Source of the DNA: Terriglobia bacterium
GTDB lineage: Bacteria > Acidobacteriota > Terriglobia > Bryobacterales > Bryobacteraceae
Assembly (NCBI GenBank): GCA_010084195.1
Contig: RGPS01000006.1
Coordinates: forward strand, 1 to 64,000
DNA length: 64,000 nucleotides
Reading direction: 5' to 3'
The notes below the pieces were generated by a model. The model saw nothing but the letters and a program-made list of their open reading frames with translations. It searched no databases and had not been told where the DNA came from. Below are positions 1 through 8,555 of the stretch, piece by piece. The stretch's first letter is position 1; every line of letters begins with the position of its first letter. The position numbers and the translations under genes are program-made.

Positions 1-517
1 CGTATCGTCGGGCGAGCGCAACCAGGTCCAGGCGAGGGGCCACCACCCCGGATGCATGCAGGCCACGCGGCAGCGAAGCGAAGGCAAAGAGCTTGCCGGG
101 CTGGTAAAAATAGCAGAGAGGACGGACGCCCATAATGTCACGAGCGCAACGCAGCCGGCGCTGTCGCGGGTCCCATGCCGCAAGGGCAAAATCTCCGTCG
201 AGATGATCGGGTAAATCGAGTCCCCATTCTTCGAACGCGGCAAATACCGGTGCTTCATTCAGCGTGCGCGGGTGCCGGTCGAGCCGGACGTCCGCTGCAA
301 GCCAGGTCCCGTCCGTGCCGACGGGTAAGGTGGCCGAAAACGTTTCCGATATGGCTGCGTTTGAAAAATCCAGTACCGCGAGGCTGGCCGGCCCCTCCAC
401 CCTCTGACGCACGCGGGGTTCCAGCCCGGGTGACGAAAGAGCCGCGATCATTCGGGCCAGAGTTATCGCATCCGCAGGCGTGCCATCCAGTTGCACCACG
501 CCGCAAATCAGCCGCAT
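1..517 (-). CDS. Lasso peptide cyclase (asparagine synthetase-like, C protein), N-terminal part, cut by window edge
   Basis: Reading the minus strand from an ATG at 517 gives about 172 codons with no stop before the window edge, so the frame continues outside. The translation starts MRLICGVVQLDG and contains HLDGDFALAAWDPRQRRL and ARDIMGVRPLCYF, the signature of the class II glutamine amidotransferase-like domain of asparagine synthetases. The synthetase half with the PP-loop is not visible. In lasso loci such a protein activates the ring Asp/Glu side chain by adenylation and closes the macrolactam. The start overlaps the stop of the B1 gene (TGATG), so the two are probably translationally coupled. 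The assignment to a lasso cyclase rather than an ordinary AsnB rests on the neighbours (B1, B2, kinase, precursors). Confidence 0.85.
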   Translation of the reverse strand, partial: MRLICGVVQLDGTPADAITLARMIAALSSPGLEPRVRQRVEGPASLAVLDFSNAAISETFSATLPVGTDGTWLAADVRLDRHPRTLNEAPVFAAFEEWGLDLPDHLDGDFALAAWDPRQRRLRCARDIMGVRPLCYFYQPGKLFAFASLPRGLHASGVVAPRLDLVALARRY

Positions 518-786
518 CAGGCCACGCCGCCCAGCAATTTGTGATGGCGCAACTCGGCCAGAAATGCTTCCACCTCAGCGCCACAAGTCTCCTCGGTCAC
601 CTCGTATTCGTCGAGCAACTGGGCTATCAGGGCCGCCTGCGTAGTCGGATGTTCCAGCAGTTCCCAGATCCGGGTCGCCATCCCGTTCAGGCTGAAATAC
701 TGCCCCTTCTGTACATCCATCATTAACAACGTCTTCTCGATGTAAGCCGCCGACTGTTCGCCGGTCCGCTGAATCCTTCCGTTCAT
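517..786 (-). CDS. PqqD-like lasso leader-binding protein (RRE, B1), first copy
   Basis: An 89-residue PqqD-family protein: the motif YFSLNGMATRIWELLEH followed by an acidic helix (LLDEYEV) and LLGG at the C terminus is typical of RiPP recognition elements. In lasso biosynthesis the stand-alone RRE (B1) binds the precursor leader, mainly the aromatic-x-x-P-x-L/I motif, and presents it to the B2 peptidase and the C cyclase. Its start overlaps the sulfotransferase stop (ATGA) and its stop overlaps the cyclase start (TGATG). A second homologue lies at 5287-5568. Confidence 0.85.
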   Translation of the reverse strand: MNGRIQRTGEQSAAYIEKTLLMMDVQKGQYFSLNGMATRIWELLEHPTTQAALIAQLLDEYEVTEETCGAEVEAFLAELRHHKLLGGVA

Positions 787-1658
787 GCGATCCCATCCCC
801 CGTATCTGCAAGTTCGTAGCCAAGCCGCGCCATGGTCGCCGCGTGGGCGCCTTCAATCTGACGCACCTGAGCTTTACTCAGGTGTTCTCGCCAGGCTCCT
901 GAGCGGCCCTCGCGAAAGAACATTGCCTGTTTCGCGCCGCGCTCATGGAACCCCTTTTCACTTTCCTGCCGACGGAGTTCGCTGAAATCGGCGTGCCGCA
1001 CCGCCCTGGAGACGGCATCCCGGGCGGCTGCCTCATCGGGAAATTCCGCCCCGAGGAACTCCAGAGAGCGCCGGAACACGCCAGAGGTATCAGCGCGCAA
1101 ATCCTCGTAGCGAATCAGGCAGACCGGCAGATCCGTCTGGTCAAGCCAGCTCCGGACATGGCTGGTCCAGTCGTCCAGCTTCTGCGCAAAATGAAATTGT
1201 CCTGCGGCCAGAAAATTTCCTGGACGGTTCAACCTTTCTATAGTGCGGTCGAATGTATCTGCCTGGTGGAAGGCGAAGGAAACGGCAATATCCCTCGGGT
1301 CGCGCACGAGGTACAGGGCGGCGCGCGCTGCCGCGCCCAGCACCGGTCGGCCGTCGGGCAGGTGGCTCCAGGCGTCGTGAACCTTTACGAAGCGCGCGGT
1401 GGTGAGGGTTGCCGCTCTTGCGTCATGGACGGCGGGCAGTAGCTCTTCGATTTCGTGGGGGCGCAGCAACGAGGAATCCAGCTGAGTGAGCTCCTCAAAA
1501 TCTTCACGATGACAAGCCATCCCGTCACGCAGGGAAAGATTGTTGATGTCCTCCGGAGTCTCGTTACCGGACAGCAGATTGGAGAGCAAAATCCGCATCC
1601 AGGTGTTACCCGATTTCGGATACGAAGCGAGCCATACCTGCCCCGGCGGAAAGATCAT
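783..1658 (-). CDS. Sulfotransferase in the lasso peptide operon
   Basis: A 291-residue PAPS-dependent sulfotransferase-family protein. Near the N terminus YPKSGNTWMR is the 5'-phosphosulfate binding loop, and LVRDPRDIAVSF near residue 117 matches the 3'-phosphate binding motif. FREGRSGAWREHLS close to the C terminus matches the conserved RxGxxGxWK-type region. It overlaps the kinase gene upstream and the B1 gene downstream by ATGA, so it is part of the lasso operon. The likely role is O-sulfation of the peptide, but neither predicted core contains Tyr, so the acceptor would have to be Ser, Thr or another group. Sulfation of something outside the peptide is not excluded. Confidence 0.85.
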   Translation of the reverse strand: MIFPPGQVWLASYPKSGNTWMRILLSNLLSGNETPEDINNLSLRDGMACHREDFEELTQLDSSLLRPHEIEELLPAVHDARAATLTTARFVKVHDAWSHLPDGRPVLGAAARAALYLVRDPRDIAVSFAFHQADTFDRTIERLNRPGNFLAAGQFHFAQKLDDWTSHVRSWLDQTDLPVCLIRYEDLRADTSGVFRRSLEFLGAEFPDEAAARDAVSRAVRHADFSELRRQESEKGFHERGAKQAMFFREGRSGAWREHLSKAQVRQIEGAHAATMARLGYELADTGDGIA

Positions 1659-2608
1659 TGTGGAAGTTCCTGCCAGTGAGCGTGCAGGTCACTCACCGTC
1701 CGGGCCAGCTGGTCCAGGCCAGGGGGGCGGGTCAGGGTGAACACCGGAACATGGCTAACTACGGCGGCTGTTAGTGCGACCTGAGAGCTGCGCCGGACCA
1801 TTGCCAGAGAAACGCGACGCCGATAGCTCTGCCCGTGCAGGGCCTGTGCACTCTCGAGCGGGGAGAGCCGTTCGATCACTGTCGCCCCGGATAATTTGTC
1901 GTTGTTCAGGATGTAGACAGCAGCCAACTGGAGGGGCGTGCCGGCCCCGTGCGGGAGGAGCGCAGGCGGAGCGGGAGGCTCGATATAGCATTTCCCAATT
2001 CCGGACCGCACCGCACCACGGCGCTGTGCTGCCAAATCGAGATGGGTGATGCTGTTTTCAAGGAGCTTCAATTGGCGCCCGTCCGGCCAAATCACTGGGC
2101 TGCCGGCTTCAGCAAGGCTTACGGAGCAGACATCGTCGGTTACAAAATGGGTGCCACTCCGACAGAGAGCTGCGGCGAGGGTGGACTTTCCAATACCGCT
2201 CCTGCCACAGAATACAAAGGCGCGGCCCTGCGCGTCCGCCACCGCAGAACCATGCAGGACGAGGCCCCCGCGCTGCAACAGCACGACGCCAAAACAGGTG
2301 CCAAGCACGAAAGGGAGCGCATCGTTCGGGTCCGTTCCAGGTGCGGGATCGAGGTCCACCGTCTGGCCATCGGTGCACAGCATGCCTCCAATACCAGCCA
2401 GTCGCAGCAGAAAATGACGGGCGCTGAGTTGCCAGCCGGGGCCTTGTTTGACTGGAGAGTCAAGTAGCTCGGGAACGGGGCGCAGGCGGATGAGCACATC
2501 AGGCTGCTTTTGGGGGCCCGGGACCGGATCCACACCGGGCAATTTCAGCTCAGAACCGACTATCAGACCCGAGATCCGGAAAGTCCATTTGTTCATTTGA
2601 AGTTTCAT
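1655..2608 (-). CDS. HPr kinase-like lasso peptide kinase
   Basis: A 317-residue protein with a HprK/P-type nucleotide-binding core: LHGSAVAD, then the Walker A loop FCGRSGIGKSTLAAAL near residue 133, and FVTDDV downstream. Such HprK homologues occur in Proteobacteria and Bacillota lasso clusters, where they phosphorylate the C-terminal Ser hydroxyl of the precursor (PadeK and ThcoK are the studied examples). Both candidate precursors here end in Ser. The gene is the first of the minus-strand operon and is separated by only 54 bp from the divergent precursor A1. A second in-frame ATG four codons in is an alternative start. Confidence 0.85.
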   Translation of the reverse strand: MKLQMNKWTFRISGLIVGSELKLPGVDPVPGPQKQPDVLIRLRPVPELLDSPVKQGPGWQLSARHFLLRLAGIGGMLCTDGQTVDLDPAPGTDPNDALPFVLGTCFGVVLLQRGGLVLHGSAVADAQGRAFVFCGRSGIGKSTLAAALCRSGTHFVTDDVCSVSLAEAGSPVIWPDGRQLKLLENSITHLDLAAQRRGAVRSGIGKCYIEPPAPPALLPHGAGTPLQLAAVYILNNDKLSGATVIERLSPLESAQALHGQSYRRRVSLAMVRRSSQVALTAAVVSHVPVFTLTRPPGLDQLARTVSDLHAHWQELPQ

Positions 2609-2662
2609 GCTAACATGTTGCTAACTGCTGGATGGCGTTGGAGGGAAGGAAATACGCACACG

Positions 2663-2830
2663 ATGAACACGATAGAAAAGAACGACATGGAACGTGGGCC
2701 TGCGGTCGGGATGACTCAGCGGCAACCATGGGAGACACCACGGATCGAAGCTGCGGCGGTCGCATTGTCGACGCAGGTGCTGAAACATCGGCACACGTCT
2801 GAAACCACCACGGGCCAGCCTGGCTCGTAG
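2663..2830 (+). CDS. Candidate lasso peptide precursor A1
   Basis: A 55-residue open frame starting MNTIEKND with a purine-rich site (GGAGGGAAGGAA) ending about 10 bases before the ATG. W23-E-T-P26-R-I28 matches the aromatic-x-x-P-x-L/I motif bound by B1, and T37 sits where the conserved penultimate leader Thr is expected. Cleavage after Q38 would release VLKHRHTSETTTGQPGS, with E47 as core residue 9, which fits a nine-residue macrolactam, and a C-terminal Ser for the kinase. A Val at core position 1 is less common than Gly. It lies between the divergent kinase and the B2 peptidase on the same strand, which supports the call. Confidence 0.68.
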   Translation: MNTIEKNDMERGPAVGMTQRQPWETPRIEAAAVALSTQVLKHRHTSETTTGQPGS

Positions 2831-2864
2831 CTAAACTGGCTTTCATTCCAGCCGCTATAAAAAA

Positions 2865-3350
2865 ATGTATGGTCTGGCGAGAACGGTTCGGCATTTCGTA
2901 TCTTGGCCGGCGTTCGAGCAGATGTTGTTTCCATTCGCTTGGCTTGGTCTGGGTATTAGCAGGCTGGTTGTAATCGCGGTTCCGTTTAGAAGTTTCGCAC
3001 CCTGCTTGGGAGCCTCGCGCGAAGCTTCGTCTTGGATCCCCCTGCTCCATGCCCAAGCTGAACTTCGTGCTCTGTCTATTGGCAAAGTTGTGCGAGTCGC
3101 AGCCCGCTACACGCCGTGGACGACGAACTGTTTCCCGCAGGCGATAACGGCTGCGGCCCTCCTGACTTTGTACCGCGTACCCTACAGTTTGTTTTTGGGA
3201 GTTCAAGGAAACCCCGGCAAACTGAGTGCTCATGCTTGGGTGGCTGCAGGCCGGGTTCGGGTTACCGGTGGCCCCGGCTTCGGTAAGTTGGTCGTGGTAG
3301 GTTGCTTCACCCGCAATGTTCAAACGTCCTCGCTGCCAAGAACTCCCTGA
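2865..3350 (+). CDS. Lasso leader peptidase B2 (transglutaminase-like)
   Basis: A 161-residue protein of the transglutaminase-like cysteine protease family found in lasso clusters (PF13471 type). C89 in TNCFPQAITAAALL and H123 in LSAHAWVAAGRVRV are the expected catalytic Cys and His; the family motif is a Cys-x-x-x-A helix, then LGV, then AHAW. The third catalytic acid is not obvious: the region 10-15 residues after the His reads VTGGPGFGK. It starts 34 bp after the A1 precursor stop and is co-directional with it. Predicted role: cleaving the leader so the core N terminus can be cyclised. It is the only B2 in the window and would have to serve both precursors. Confidence 0.85.
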   Translation: MYGLARTVRHFVSWPAFEQMLFPFAWLGLGISRLVVIAVPFRSFAPCLGASREASSWIPLLHAQAELRALSIGKVVRVAARYTPWTTNCFPQAITAAALLTLYRVPYSLFLGVQGNPGKLSAHAWVAAGRVRVTGGPGFGKLVVVGCFTRNVQTSSLPRTP

Positions 3351-3391
3351 GGGACCGCCGGGCCAGCTAGCTGCGGTCGGACCAACGGACG

Positions 3392-4321
3392 TCACGCCCG
3401 GAAACCCGGAAACTGACGCAAGAAGTTGATCAGGAAGATGTTTGTTGGCACTTTGCGGATCGTATAGCTCTTTTCTGGGTGCAGTGGGTCCCCTTGGCGT
3501 GTTTGTATTGCATCCACCAAGCCGCCAACATCCACCACTTCCCGAACCGGATCGGACTTCCCGATCCCCCGCACAAATTCGCGGACTCCGCTGAGTTGCC
3601 GTTTGTACCTCAAGGCGTAGTCCGGTGACCCTTGCATTTGGTGTCGACGCCACGACAACTCAGCAGGCAGGATCGCCTCGAACGCCTTCCGAACAAGATA
3701 TCTCCCATATCCCTCCCGCGACTTGAAAACCGACGGAATCGCCAGGCAGTATTCGATCAGGTCTTTGTCATTGAGTGGGCAGGAATACCCCATCACATAC
3801 TCCGGCGGGAGGCAGGCGCGAATCGCGCACCTGTCGCTGACGTTCGCCGTTGTCCGAAGTTGCGCCGCACCAGAGTCTGGCCAGAGGGGCGGGTATCGCC
3901 GAGTTCGTTTTGGTGCACCATTTTGGAACGCAGGGTTCAAAAGGAACACCGATCTGTCCAGCGGACGACCGAAATACTCGCGTATCTCGCCCCCAAGCAG
4001 GCGAACTCCCGAGATCCCCCGATTGACCGAGGTTCGTCTCAATTCCCGAGATAGGGTTAACCAACGAAGCCGGGTCAGATGCTCCAGAAACCGGGCTGCG
4101 GGTGTTCCGCTGACACCCATTTCGCCACCACCGCCATGGAGCAGCAACTGTCTTCCGGCGGATGAGGCGGTCTGAAAGACGGAGTCAAAAAGATAGCGCA
4201 GACCAGGCAGCCTGGGAGTCGTCTCAAACAGCATTGGATCCCCAAGGCCATCAAAAGGACCTTTCCCGGCAGAGTCCACGAACGCCAGCTCCACATTGTC
4301 AAAACATCTCAGCTTTTCCAT
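3392..4321 (-). pseudogene. Second lasso cyclase, C-terminal fragment (synthetase domain without PP-loop)
   Basis: A 309-residue frame with features of the C-terminal asparagine synthetase domain: LLLHGGGGEMGVSG (the region usually GxGGDE), then CPLNDKDLIEYCLAIP and GYGRYLVRKAFEAILPAEL. The SGGLDSS PP-loop motif that should lie between the glutaminase-like and this segment is absent. The first residues (MEKLRCFDNVELAFVDSAG) already correspond to a point well inside the domain. It overlaps the upstream N-terminal fragment (stop at 4309) in a different frame, which points to one ancestral gene with an internal deletion that also shifted the frame. I treat both pieces as a broken cyclase. Confidence 0.72.
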
Positions 4322-5001
4322 GTAACAATTAGCTGTCTAACCCGTTCGTAGATCTCCCGTTCGTTGCGCGAAACCAGGTCCGGCCGGATCGTCGGCGTCC
4401 AATAGGAGCGAATCCGCAAGTCGCTTCCGGAAGTCACCAAAATCGAGCCCGGTGGGAGTGCATAAATCCCCTTGTGCAGGCACTCCCCAGCTTCCGCAGG
4501 CAGAGTATCGAAATCCCCAAAGGCACGCAGGGCAGTGACATTTAGCTCACGCGGACACCCTTCGGTCCGCAACATGGTTCGCATGTCTCCAGCCACCACC
4601 AGTGACTGCCCCTGCTGCCGATAAAGCAAGGGCAGTGACCCCAGATGATCGGTACAGGCCAGTACACGCCCCTGTCGGCTGTCCCGCAGCGCGAAAGCGA
4701 ATTGCCCCTCCAGTTGTTGGGGCAGCTTGTCGCCCCATCGTTCGTAGGCGTGCGCAAGCAGCGACAGATCGTGGCAGTTTTCTGCCACAGCCCTCGCAAT
4801 TCCGAGCGAAGTGACAAGTTCCTGGCGGTTGTGCAGTTCCACGGAACCCACAACCGCGATATGCGGCAGCCCGACAGTGGACCGAAGGCTGCTGCAAGCT
4901 GTTCCGCAATCGCGGTCGCGCCCGTAGTCAGTTTCCAGAACTGCCGAGAACGCCTCCCAGGGCCAGCATTTCGACTGCCGCCGGACCGCGTCCCGAACCA
5001 T
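4309..5001 (-). pseudogene. Second lasso cyclase, N-terminal fragment (glutaminase-like domain)
   Basis: A 230-residue frame from an ATG at 5001, eight bases after the A2 precursor stop. AYERWGDKLPQQLEGQFAFA and ACTDHLGSLPLLY are the typical class II amidotransferase-like region of asparagine synthetases; the N-terminal Cys is missing, as tolerated in lasso cyclases. The frame ends IYERVRQLIVTWKS at the point where the PP-loop domain should begin. The remaining synthetase part continues in another frame at 3392-4321. The frame is open further upstream to 5103, but that would overlap the precursor and is unlikely to be used. Confidence 0.75.
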
Positions 5002-5008
5002 ACAGCCC

Positions 5009-5161
5009 CTAACTCGCGGAGCCGTCTTCTTCCGGCAGGGCGACATCAGCGCCCCCTGGGTTCGGCCCTCCCAGAACAAACGACTGCAGGGATCCCAACT
5101 CAATCAACTGCGGAGGTACATAAGACTTGTTTCCACTTCTGGACAAAACGCCGGTCTGCAT
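5009..5161 (-). CDS. Lasso peptide precursor A2
   Basis: A 50-residue frame from ATG 5161, preceded by GAGGTG seven bases upstream; an upstream in-frame ATG at 5212 lacks this. The leader has Y14, P17, L19 and G23, exactly the YxxPxLxxxG pattern bound by B1. The canonical motif places Thr six residues after the Gly; here it is V29. Cleavage after L30 leaves GGPNPGGADVALPEEDGSAS: Gly at position 1, Asp at position 9 (nine-residue ring), an acidic tail and a C-terminal Ser for phosphorylation. This resembles paeninodin-type cores. It sits between B1 (5287-5568) and the broken cyclase. Confidence 0.82.
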   Translation of the reverse strand: MQTGVLSRSGNKSYVPPQLIELGSLQSFVLGGPNPGGADVALPEEDGSAS

Positions 5162-5286
5162 TGGAACCCACCTCAGGAAATTTCTGAAATATGCGGAAAC
5201 GTGCAACCACACGAGGGTTCGCGCGCCAGACAGACAGTTCCACAGCGGGACACGCCGTCGTTTCTAAGGAAGCCCCGGGGACAGTG

Positions 5287-5568
5287 TCAAACGGTTGGGG
5301 AAGTTGCGCGCAACAATCCGGCCTGCAACAGTTCGCCCACCAGGGTTTCCAGATCCGCCTGCAGCGTTGCCGACGGAACTGAGTACTCCTCTTGCAATTG
5401 GGTGACCACTTTAGAAGGCTCCCCGAGTTCCATCAACAATTCCCACATACGCGTACCTGTATCGTTCAGGCCGTAGTACTGCTGGTTGGACATGTTGAGA
5501 AGGACCGCTTCGTCGTTCAGGCGCTGGAGGATGACGGATTCTCCGATTTCAACGCGGGACGGAAGCAT
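5287..5568 (-). CDS. PqqD-like lasso leader-binding protein (RRE, B1), second copy
   Basis: A 93-residue PqqD-family protein starting MLPSRVEIGESVILQ. NMSNQQYYGLNDTGTRMWELL is the characteristic RRE motif and VGELLQAGLL the C-terminal helix. The frame is open upstream to 5682, but that part is the antisense reading of the tRNA-Ala gene, so ATG 5568 is chosen. It is the first gene of the second sub-cluster and lies 125 bp upstream of the A2 precursor start. It probably recognises the A2 leader. Confidence 0.83.
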   Translation of the reverse strand: MLPSRVEIGESVILQRLNDEAVLLNMSNQQYYGLNDTGTRMWELLMELGEPSKVVTQLQEEYSVPSATLQADLETLVGELLQAGLLRATSPTV

Positions 5569-5602: not shown

Positions 5603-5678
5603 TGGTGGACCTGAAGGGATTCGAACCCTTGACCTCTTCCATGCCATGGAAGCGCGCTCCCAACTGCGCCACAGGCCC
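5603..5678 (-). tRNA. tRNA-Ala (anticodon GGC)
   Basis: The minus strand folds as a tRNA: acceptor arm GGGCCTG pairs with CAGGTCC (one G-U), the anticodon stem-loop is CTTCC-ATGGCAT-GGAAG with T33-GGC, and the T arm contains GGTTCGAATCC. The CCA end is encoded. Its 3' end faces the lasso locus, 34 bp from the B1 start. Confidence 0.95.
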
Positions 5679-5813
5679 ACAACGACTCAACGAACTCAGT
5701 GTAACACTACACCTTCAATCGCCCGGGCCGGAACCCACCGACCTCGTAAAACTTGCTAAATTCTCGCCTGCGTGCCATACCCGAGTGCGCTCCCGGCTTA
5801 CAATAAAAGTTTG

Positions 5814-6740
5814 ATGCGCCATTCGCGCCGGGTTGCGCTCGTAGTTTCCACCCTTCTTATCTCGTGTTTCGCCAGTTCGTGCGGCCTGCTCGTGCGCTCC
5901 AGGACCATCCTGCGGCACGGCAAGCCCGTCGTTCAGGGGCAGTCACCCAAGCTCCTGTCCGCTACAAAAACGCAGTTGAACGCCCGTATCACAAATCTCT
6001 ACAATCCAATCAGCTCCTTCCAGGCAACCGTGGACATGACGCCGTCCCTCGGCAGCGTCTACAAGGGCCAGATCAAAGAGATTAAGGACGTTCGCGCTTT
6101 TGTCCTCTACCGTAAGAGCGCCGATATTCGAATCATTGGCCAGACCCCCGTGGTCCGTACCCGGGCCTTCGACATGGTCTCGAACGGCATCGTTTTTCAG
6201 CTTTTCGTCTCATCCAGAAACCTCTTCGTGCAGGGCGACAACAGTGCCCCGGCAACTTCAAAGAATGCCTTGGAAAACCTGCGTCCGGATGCCTTCCTGT
6301 CGTCCATGCTGATTCGGCCCGCCGGCCCGGACGAGACCCTTCTCCTGATGGATGACACCGATGAGGAGAAGGCCGAGTACGCTCTGCTTTTCCTGAAGAA
6401 GGGTCCGACCGGCGAAGATGTGGCATCCAGGAAAATCGTGTTTGACCGGCTCGACCTCAGTATTGCCCGCCAGATCGTTTTTGATGCCGAGGGCGGAATC
6501 ATCAGCGATACACGCTACGCGAAGTGGACCGTCTTTGACAACAATTCTTTCCCTGCCCACATCGACATCAACCGGCCCCAAGACGGCTACGGTGTCGCCA
6601 TGGACGTGATGCAGATGCAGATGAATAAGATCTTTGCCGACAAGGACTTCCTCCTCGAACGCCCGGAGGGCTCGCAATTGCAAATTATAGGAGCAAATGG
6701 CTCCGACGCTAAGCCTGCGTCGCAGCCCCCCCCTAAATGA
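5814..6740 (+). CDS. Predicted lipoprotein, ABC-operon partner
   Basis: The likely start is the Met of MRHSRRVALVVSTLLISCF, which gives a positively charged, hydrophobic signal ending FASSC, an approximate lipobox. The remaining roughly 290 residues look like a beta-rich periplasmic domain with LRPDAFLSSMLIRP and a Pro/Lys-rich tail; I suspect a LolA/DUF4292-like fold but no motif proves it. The stop overlaps the start of the ABC permease (ATGA), so it is in one operon with the permease and ATPase, possibly as a lipid- or lipoprotein-binding partner. Confidence 0.7.
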   Translation: MRHSRRVALVVSTLLISCFASSCGLLVRSRTILRHGKPVVQGQSPKLLSATKTQLNARITNLYNPISSFQATVDMTPSLGSVYKGQIKEIKDVRAFVLYRKSADIRIIGQTPVVRTRAFDMVSNGIVFQLFVSSRNLFVQGDNSAPATSKNALENLRPDAFLSSMLIRPAGPDETLLLMDDTDEEKAEYALLFLKKGPTGEDVASRKIVFDRLDLSIARQIVFDAEGGIISDTRYAKWTVFDNNSFPAHIDINRPQDGYGVAMDVMQMQMNKIFADKDFLLERPEGSQLQIIGANGSDAKPASQPPPK

Positions 6741-7831
6741 TATTTCGCCTCGTTCTTGAAAACGTGCGCCACCGCCCCGTTCGCACCATGCTCAGTGTTC
6801 TGCTGATCGCCGTCCCTGTCACTCTGATACTGGCCCTCATTGGCCTCAGCAATGGCTTCCTGGAGGACTCCCGCAAGCGATCCGCCGGAGTCGGTGCCGA
6901 CATCCTGTTCAAGGCCCCCGGGGGGTCCCTGATGACCTTCAGCACCGGTGCGCTTCCGCAAAAAATCGTCGATGTTCTGATGACGGAACCCCACGTCGTC
7001 CAGGCAACCGGCACCCTTGTCCAGCCTATTGGCGGTTTTGATTCCATCAACGGCATCGATATCGAAGCGTTCGGCAAGATGAGCGGCGGTTTCGTATACG
7101 CAGAAGGGCATGGCTTCCAGACCCCTGACGATGTCCTCGTCGACACCTGGTACGCACAACAGCGCAAGGTACACGCCGGCGGCAAGATCAATCTCCTGAA
7201 TCGCGACTGGAATGTGGCAGGCATTGTGGAACCGGGCAAACTGGCTCACCTCTTCGCCCCTCTGAGCTCCATGCAGGACATTCTCGGCAGCACCGGTAAG
7301 GTCAGCCAGGTTTTCCTCAAACTGGACGACCCGAAAAATGCCGACAAAGTGGCGGCGGCCCTCAAGGTCAAATATGCCGATTACGGCATTTGGTCCATTT
7401 CCGAAATGCAGGCCCTGATCTCGGTCGACAGTATCCCTTTGCTCAAGAACTTCATCAACGTAATTCTCGGCATCGGCGTCATCATCGGGTTCGCGGTGGT
7501 ATCCCTCTCCATGTACATGGCGGTCCTCCAGCGGACGCGGGAAATCGGCATCCTGAAGTCCATGGGGGCCACGAAGAGTTTCATTATGAGCATGATCATG
7601 GCGGAGGCTTTTTGCCTCGGCTTTGGCGGTACCGTCGCCGGCATTCTGTTTAGTTATGCCTCCCGCACCGCCATGCACGCGATTGCCCCGGCCTCCCTGC
7701 CCCAGGCGATTGTCTATGCCTGGTGGCCAATCGCGGGCGCTGTTGCCATGGGAGCCGCTCTTCTGGGGGCGGTCTATCCCGGCATGATGGCCGTCCGTCA
7801 GGACCCGATCGAGGCACTTGCACATGAGTAA
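6737..7831 (+). CDS. ABC transporter permease, MacB/FtsX type
   Basis: A 364-residue membrane protein with one N-terminal membrane helix (TMLSVLLIAVPVTLILALIG), a large MacB-type extracytoplasmic domain, and three C-terminal helices, with the family motif QRTREIGILKSMGATKSFI around residue 260. It overlaps the lipoprotein gene upstream and the ATPase gene downstream. This class (LolE, MacB, FtsX-like) couples ATP hydrolysis to movement of a periplasmic domain rather than to classical import. The substrate cannot be read from the sequence; lipoprotein or antibiotic-peptide handling are family possibilities. Confidence 0.88.
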   Translation: MIFRLVLENVRHRPVRTMLSVLLIAVPVTLILALIGLSNGFLEDSRKRSAGVGADILFKAPGGSLMTFSTGALPQKIVDVLMTEPHVVQATGTLVQPIGGFDSINGIDIEAFGKMSGGFVYAEGHGFQTPDDVLVDTWYAQQRKVHAGGKINLLNRDWNVAGIVEPGKLAHLFAPLSSMQDILGSTGKVSQVFLKLDDPKNADKVAAALKVKYADYGIWSISEMQALISVDSIPLLKNFINVILGIGVIIGFAVVSLSMYMAVLQRTREIGILKSMGATKSFIMSMIMAEAFCLGFGGTVAGILFSYASRTAMHAIAPASLPQAIVYAWWPIAGAVAMGAALLGAVYPGMMAVRQDPIEALAHE

Positions 7832-8555
7832 GGCGGGAACCAATCAACGCGGCGAAATGCCCGACCCCATCATTAAAGTCCGCGACCTGTGGAAGGTCTA
7901 CCAAAGCGGCAGAGTCTCTGTCCAGGCCCTTCGCGGGGTGAATCTGGATGTCCCGCTTGGAGAATTCCTCTCCATCGTGGGGCCCTCCGGTTCGGGCAAG
8001 TCCACCCTGTTCCACATCGTTGGCGGCATGACCCCACCTACTTCCGGAGAAGTCTGGGTCGGCGGCCGGAATCTCTCGGACGTTGGGGATGGCGGCAGAA
8101 CCGAATTGCGCCGCACTACCGTGGGCTTCGTTTTTCAGAAGTTTAATCTGTTGCCCAACCTGACGGCACGGGACAACATCCGCACTGCTCTCCATATTTC
8201 GGGCCAGCCAACCAGTGTTTTTTCCAAAGACTTCCTGGACATCCTCGATCTTCTGGGCATAGCCGGGCGCCTGGATCACAAGCCCAGCGAGATGTCCGGT
8301 GGTGAACAGCAGCGAGTCGCCATCGCCCGCGCCCTGGCCACTCGCCCTGCCATCCTGCTCGCGGACGAGCCAACCGGCAATCTGGATTCGGCTAACTCGC
8401 TGGCCGTTCTGAAGCTGATGAGGGACCTGAACGAGCGCCTCGGGCAGACGATCCTGATGATCACCCACAATGACGAAGCCGCTCAGTACGGCCACCGGAT
8501 CGTCCACATGAGGGACGGCGTCATCGTAGAATCCTCGCTTACCGCTGGCCACTGA
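7824..8555 (+). CDS. ABC transporter ATP-binding protein, LolD/MacB type
   Basis: A 243-residue ATPase: Walker A GPSGSGKST, Q-loop FQKFNLLPNLTA, signature MSGGEQQRVAIARAL, Walker B ILLADEPTGNLD and the H-switch ITHND. The ATG at 7824 overlaps the permease end; an upstream TTG at 7818 is less likely, and an ATG at 7857 is a further alternative. It energises the permease encoded immediately before it. Confidence 0.92.
   Translation: MSKAGTNQRGEMPDPIIKVRDLWKVYQSGRVSVQALRGVNLDVPLGEFLSIVGPSGSGKSTLFHIVGGMTPPTSGEVWVGGRNLSDVGDGGRTELRRTTVGFVFQKFNLLPNLTARDNIRTALHISGQPTSVFSKDFLDILDLLGIAGRLDHKPSEMSGGEQQRVAIARALATRPAILLADEPTGNLDSANSLAVLKLMRDLNERLGQTILMITHNDEAAQYGHRIVHMRDGVIVESSLTAGH

Follow-up and report, generated by a model that had tools for sequence, protein, structure and literature searches.

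We analyzed a 64,000-nucleotide stretch of DNA (the window) from a soil acidobacterium of the family Bryobacteraceae (genome G000), which carries a locus for lasso peptide biosynthesis at positions 1-5568. As the window begins at base 1 of contig C446, its left end is a contig edge. Genes were called from open reading frames and profile searches, and tRNAs by ARAGORN, and the locus was compared with those of the sister genome Bryobacterales RE-9nov16-157 (G179) and of further genomes. The genes fall into two sets, pathway 1 and pathway 2, the first of which probably lies nested within the second. A preliminary description of the locus had listed two recognition elements (RREs) for ribosomally synthesized and post-translationally modified peptides (RiPPs), a B2 peptidase with C89 and H123, a partial and a broken cyclase, a kinase, a sulfotransferase and two precursors, and had noted operon overlaps of 1-4 bases; profiles and motifs agree with this list, and the overlaps are present in the coordinates. 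Ratios of nonsynonymous to synonymous substitution (dN/dS) ranged from 0.10 to 0.25 among the enzymes and from 0.24 to 0.65 among the precursors.

The overlaps join the minus-strand genes of pathway 1 (2608..1655 / 1658..783 / 786..517 / 517..). The gene at 1655..2608 (minus strand) encodes an HprK-type peptide kinase, which matches HprK_rel_A (E=1.5e-8) and, below the Pfam cutoff, Hpr_kinase_C (E=2e-5). It has H119, the Walker A sequence GRSGIGKS at residues 135-142 and D158-D159, and thus presents the His, Walker and Asp-Asp residue types that were shown to be important in lasso kinases (PMC10368454). The gene at 783..1658 (minus strand; PF00685, E=5e-28) encodes a sulfotransferase of the 3'-phosphoadenosine 5'-phosphosulfate (PAPS) type, in which YPKSGNTW, YLVRDPRD...S, KVHD and FFREGRSGAW supply the 5'-phosphosulfate-binding (5'-PSB) and 3'-phosphate-binding (3'-PB) regions, the catalytic His and the GxxGxW motif. 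Across seven homologues from lasso loci, the regions YPKSGNTW, RDPRD, K92-x-H94-D95 and FFRxGxxGxW are largely invariant. An in-frame TAG in the G179 sulfotransferase was considered as a sign of a pseudogene and rejected, as this stop sits at the extreme C-terminus.

RRE1, the B1 protein of pathway 1 (517..786, minus strand), is PqqD-like (PF05402, E=9e-21; lasso_PqqD_Bac, E=2.7e-17, below the strict cutoff of that profile) and is 80-85% identical to its counterparts in G179 and a further genome, G194, with a dN/dS of 0.12. It is followed by lasso cyclase 1 (2..517, minus strand; GATase_7 E=3e-15, lass_lactam_cya E=1e-21), of which the contig edge leaves only residues 1-172. This N-terminal part is 77-80% identical to the intact cyclase 1 of G194, while a second half, at 78%, was found on another G000 contig, C125. 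As residues 1-172 of the G194 protein fall at C446:2-517 and residues 228-601 at C125:42724-43845 (minus strand), these contig ends, whose break points match, most likely carry the halves of one cyclase 1 gene. A PF14397 ATP-grasp gene follows cyclase 1 in G179, in G194 and on C125, and this synteny supports the join. The C125 half carries an intact PP-loop, SHLSGGLDSSAV, plus GAGGDE, and the complete cyclase 1 genes of G179 and G194 each carry SGGLDSS.

The plus strand holds the B2 leader peptidase of pathway 1 (2865..3350; NF033537 lasso_biosyn_B2 with 81.5 bits, the cutoff being 33; C89 and H123), which is 63-65% identical to the G179 and G194 proteins, and the 55-residue precursor A1 (2663..2830), MNTIEKNDMERGPAVGMTQRQPWETPRIEAAAVALSTQ-VLKHRHTSETTTGQPGS, with T(-2), a candidate E9 ring and a C-terminal Ser. 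A1 has one homologue in G179 and two in G194 (51-54% identity, E 1e-9 to 1e-12); its leader motif WETPRI and junction STQ follow the family patterns W-E-T-P-x-I and S-T-[QH], and in all four peptides the core ends in Gly-Ser. A1 thus combines a leader motif, T(-2) and an acidic residue at core position 7-9, and pathway 1 as a whole has the gene set of a split-B1/B2 lasso system, namely B1, B2 with its Cys and His, a PP-loop cyclase and a precursor. In the A1 relatives T(-2) gives K1..E7, while in the window A1 it gives V1..E9; if the latter were cut two residues later, K1..E7 would result, with V(-2)L(-1). The A1 ring may thus contain 7 residues (K1-E7) or 9 residues (V1-E9). No ABC exporter gene was recognised inside the locus.

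Pathway 2 is represented in the window by RRE2, A2 and cyclase 2. RRE2 (B1; 5287..5568, minus strand; PqqD E=1.5e-17, lasso_PqqD_Strm E=1.3e-14) is 90% identical to its G179 counterpart, with a dN/dS of 0.10; its start was corrected to the ATG at 5568, because the longer frame runs into a tRNA-Ala gene at 5603-5678. Precursor A2 (5009..5161, minus strand), MQTGVLSRSGNKSYVPPQLIELGSLQSFVL-GGPNPGGADVALPEEDGSAS, is best read from the ATG at 5161 and has V(-2), a D9 ring, a C-terminal Ser and a weak match to lasso_leader_L3 (E=0.03). Its leader motif YVPPQL, its junction SFVL-GGPNPGGAD... and the presence of a cluster kinase (the second kinase on C125) place it in the V/I(-2) type, which was published for Acidobacteriaceae (PMC10368454). 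A2 homologues are found in G179, in a further genome, G171, and on C125 of G000. The two tests that the preliminary description had set in advance, a PP-loop in the left cyclase past the window edge and conservation of both small frames, thus both came out in its favor.

Lasso cyclase 2 (3392..5001, minus strand; PF00733/GATase_7, lass_lactam_cya) is broken into an N-terminal part at 4309-5001 and a C-terminal part at 3392-4321. Compared with the intact 595-residue orthologue at the same place in G179, 181 nucleotides including SGGLDSS are absent and the frame is shifted, so that the window copy of pathway 2 has lost the PP-loop of a functional cyclase. A natural variant lacking the PP-loop was considered and rejected, since the G179 orthologue has the loop and the gap is out of frame. 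As both flanks of the deletion still show a dN/dS near 0.2 relative to G179, the loss is either recent or an assembly error. In the cyclase-2-type proteins of loci L034 (9717-11501) and L035 (9752-11554), the lasso-cyclase GGDE is replaced by GGEM or WGEH, with SGGLDSS kept.

Gene order in G000 and related genomes

By synteny, the G000 genes are ordered in three blocks: RRE2-A2-cyclase 2 on C446; B2-A1-kinase-sulfotransferase-RRE1-cyclase 1-ATP-grasp, running from C446 into C125; and, on C125, a 3' fragment of cyclase 2 followed by A2'-cyclase 2'-kinase 2-PEP-CTERM protein-nucleotidyltransferase-B2'. Pathway 1 is thus nested within pathway 2. The same order, minus A2'-cyclase 2', is found in G179, where B2' stands at the end of contig C190. 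C125 holds intact copies of cyclase 2' (601 residues, with SGGLDSS), of A2', of the second kinase and of B2'. The second kinase and the nucleotidyltransferase (PF14907) are present in G000, G179 and G171. The gene for the PEP-CTERM protein lies between these two in two genomes (L034 1454-2542, L035 7595-8680).

Each pathway also occurs without the other. Pathway 1 is found without pathway 2 in G194, with its two A1 copies, and in G124, while G203 holds the kinase-sulfotransferase-RRE1-cyclase 1 part. Conversely, G171 has pathway 2 without the sulfotransferase set: one contig runs from an RRE through A2, cyclase 2 and A2' to the start of cyclase 2' at the contig end, and a second holds the rest of a cyclase 2', the second kinase, B2' and the PF14907 nucleotidyltransferase. 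The kinase and the sulfotransferase are part of the A1 gene set, for which stand-alone copies exist.

The 3' fragment of cyclase 2 on C125 is 91% identical at the DNA level to the window cyclase 2, compared with 80% between the window and G179, so that the direct repeats on either side of pathway 1 appear to have arisen after this lineage separated from that of G179. Most simply, pathway 1 would have been placed within pathway 2, and a duplication would have followed.

The kinase-sulfotransferase tandem and known systems

Seventeen close relatives of the sulfotransferase were found in 14 of 237 Bryobacteraceae genomes, and an HprK-like match lies beside all 17, two of these matches being either weak or truncated where the contig ends. 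When the sulfotransferase alignment was used to scan named species more widely, 80 loci were kept, many of them on short contigs. In 73 of the 80 a kinase lies at most 400 bp upstream on the same strand, and within 8 kb of the sulfotransferase there is an RRE in 61, a cyclase in 56, a B2 in 45 and all three in 36. Among the hosts of the 80 loci are Sphingomonas, Ancylobacter, Falsiroseomonas, Novosphingobium, Bacteroidales, Chloroflexota, Verrucomicrobiota, Cyanobacteria and Zetaproteobacteria. The ATP-grasp gene is seen again in the loci of Ancylobacter, Falsiroseomonas and Novosphingobium and in another one from an alphaproteobacterium, and the precursors of the three named genera (W..P.IED..., ...LKPGS) resemble A1. 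The tandem might mark, in one branch with ATP-grasp, a large lasso class of many phyla whose peptides bear phosphate, sulfate and perhaps a ligated group, with one cluster inserted into another here; we advance this tentatively, as somewhat short of an even chance.

All precursor-like frames recognised beside the kinase-sulfotransferase pair in Bryobacteraceae end in Ser; this is given as direct counts only, because the control windows contain precursors as well and are rich in Ser. When precursors were inspected by eye, no shared sulfation site beyond the C-terminal Ser was found to hold across loci. In another Bryobacteraceae genus, a kinase-sulfotransferase locus (L043 8817-9776) has five tandem precursors, most of which carry Asp or Glu as core residue 9 and have a short tail with Ser as its last residue.

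Pathway 1 resembles the paeninodin/ThcoK/SyanK clusters (A, K, B1, B2, C; Zhu et al. 2016, as presented in PMC8498205 and PMC9266682) in its HprK-type kinase with the His, Walker and Asp-Asp residues, its split B1/B2, its Asn-synthetase-like cyclase and its Ser-ending precursor. Those clusters come from Firmicutes or Sphingomonads, whereas pathway 1 is hosted by Bryobacteraceae and adds a sulfotransferase directly behind the kinase, as well as the PF14397 ATP-grasp. A sulfotransferase in kinase-type lasso clusters is already noted: a putative one stands at the cluster start in Firmicutes (Zhu 2016c, as cited in PMC8498205), while that of pathway 1 follows the kinase in a tight tandem, and for both a function is unreported. 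In the literature searched we found no sulfated lasso peptide and no reported product of the tandem.

Pathway 2 resembles the bsf cluster of Bradymonas sediminis and the Acidobacteriaceae precursors (PMC10368454) in V/I(-2), YxxPxL, the kinase, the nucleotidyltransferase and B1/B2/C, but has other core sequences and is interrupted by a second lasso cluster. Its precursors mostly end in Ser, whereas BsfA has a terminal Asp and carries its phosphate on Ser3 (PMC10368454). The acidobacterial lasso biosynthetic gene cluster (BGC) 482.1 (PMC9064862) likewise has B1, B2, C, a kinase-like gene and two A genes, but its kinase is of the aminoglycoside-phosphotransferase type, and it has one cyclase and no sulfotransferase listed. 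The preliminary remark that no such system was known from Acidobacteriota was thus too strong, as kinase-type lasso clusters and Val/Ile(-2) precursors of Acidobacteriaceae are published (PMC10368454) and a putative sulfotransferase has been noted in the Firmicutes clusters (PMC8498205).

Proposed roles and alternative explanations

We propose that the locus holds two interleaved lasso pathways, pathway 1 nested in pathway 2, and put the probability of this reading, including the roles that follow, at roughly 0.78. RRE1 would hold the A1 leader via W-x-x-P-x-I, and the kinase would phosphorylate the C-terminal Ser of A1, as HprK homologues do with linear lasso precursors (PMC8498205, PMC9266682), in one case assisted by B1 (PMC10368454). 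The sulfotransferase would add sulfate to a Ser or Thr hydroxyl of A1, probably also before threading. B2 would cut A1 after the T-x pair, cyclase 1 would close the 7- or 9-residue ring around a tail ending in Gly-Ser, and the ATP-grasp enzyme could ligate a further group. That at least one product is phosphorylated and sulfated, as the preliminary description had suggested, is a reasonable inference. The product of pathway 2 would be a Val/Ile(-2) lasso peptide of the type known from acidobacteria, made with the B2', kinase and nucleotidyltransferase that belong to this pathway; in G000, pathway 2 could run only via cyclase 2' and A2', presumably with RRE2.

Several points weigh against this reading and should be considered. 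No product is known. The join of C446 and C125 is inferred, with about 55 cyclase 1 residues missing between the halves, and the pathway 2 of G171 is likewise pieced together from two contigs. The right end of C125 (L035 14830-15735) consists of about 900 bp of unrelated sequence with 47% GC, compared with 64% just inside, and is probably a chimeric contig end; it encodes the first part of an outer-membrane-protein-like frame that has no relation to the locus. The cyclase 2 deletion could be an assembly error. Some precursors adjacent to the pair in Chloroflexota and Burkholderiales lack a terminal Ser, so that a C-terminal Ser is not a general requirement, and the published lasso kinase BsfK targets Ser3 rather than the C-terminus (PMC10368454), which makes the phosphorylation site of A1 uncertain.

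One alternative is that the window holds pathway 2 only in a state of decay, with A2 and RRE2 as remnants, and that pathway 1 alone is functional. The frameshifting deletion that removed the PP-loop and the additional cyclase 2 fragment on C125 would fit such decay; however, RRE2 is the best conserved protein of the locus, and an intact cyclase 2', A2', second kinase and B2' lie on C125, and we regard this explanation as unlikely. Less probable still is a single two-headed operon, as first described, in which two lasso peptides share one B2 and the kinase and sulfotransferase act on either. Both precursors and two RREs do lie within 5.6 kb, and the window and contig C82 of G179 each contain a single B2. 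Nonetheless, a divergent B2' stands beside cyclase-2-type loci in five genomes (C125 of G000, G179, G171, G205 and G200); with 38-66% identity among them and barely any similarity to B2, it forms a distinct branch, so that a single shared B2 is unlikely. The modules, moreover, occur separately in G171 and G194, and the window cyclase 2 is without its PP-loop. Finally, the sulfotransferase might act not on the peptide but on a polysaccharide, a lipid or another small molecule, and stand beside the lasso genes by coincidence. This would suit the lack of a sulfated lasso peptide in the literature searched, but is the most improbable of the three given the 4-bp overlaps within the operon and a tandem kept in lasso-type loci over many phyla.

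If the two pathways are indeed nested, the locus is a concrete case of one RiPP pathway inside another and, as stand-alone states survive in sister genomes, the order of events and the specificity of the paired RREs and B2 proteins can be tested. Lasso-type loci with the tandem are found in Acidobacteriota, Sphingomonadales, Bacteroidota, Chloroflexota, Verrucomicrobiota and further groups, and the chemistry of the tandem is therefore directly testable in isolates such as Sphingomonas sp. QA11, Ancylobacter rudongensis and Novosphingobium subterraneum.

Flanking genes

The right-hand boundary of the locus is the tRNA-Ala(GGC) gene at 5603..5678 (minus strand), identified by ARAGORN, past which rightward lipoprotein and permease genes are common to the window and G179. 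Directly past the tRNA, at 5772-8555, translations were named by eye as a LolA-like lipoprotein, an FtsX-type permease and an ABC ATPase; the lipoprotein and permease genes of this stretch are kept in G179, and the whole set might serve in export of the products or have housekeeping roles.

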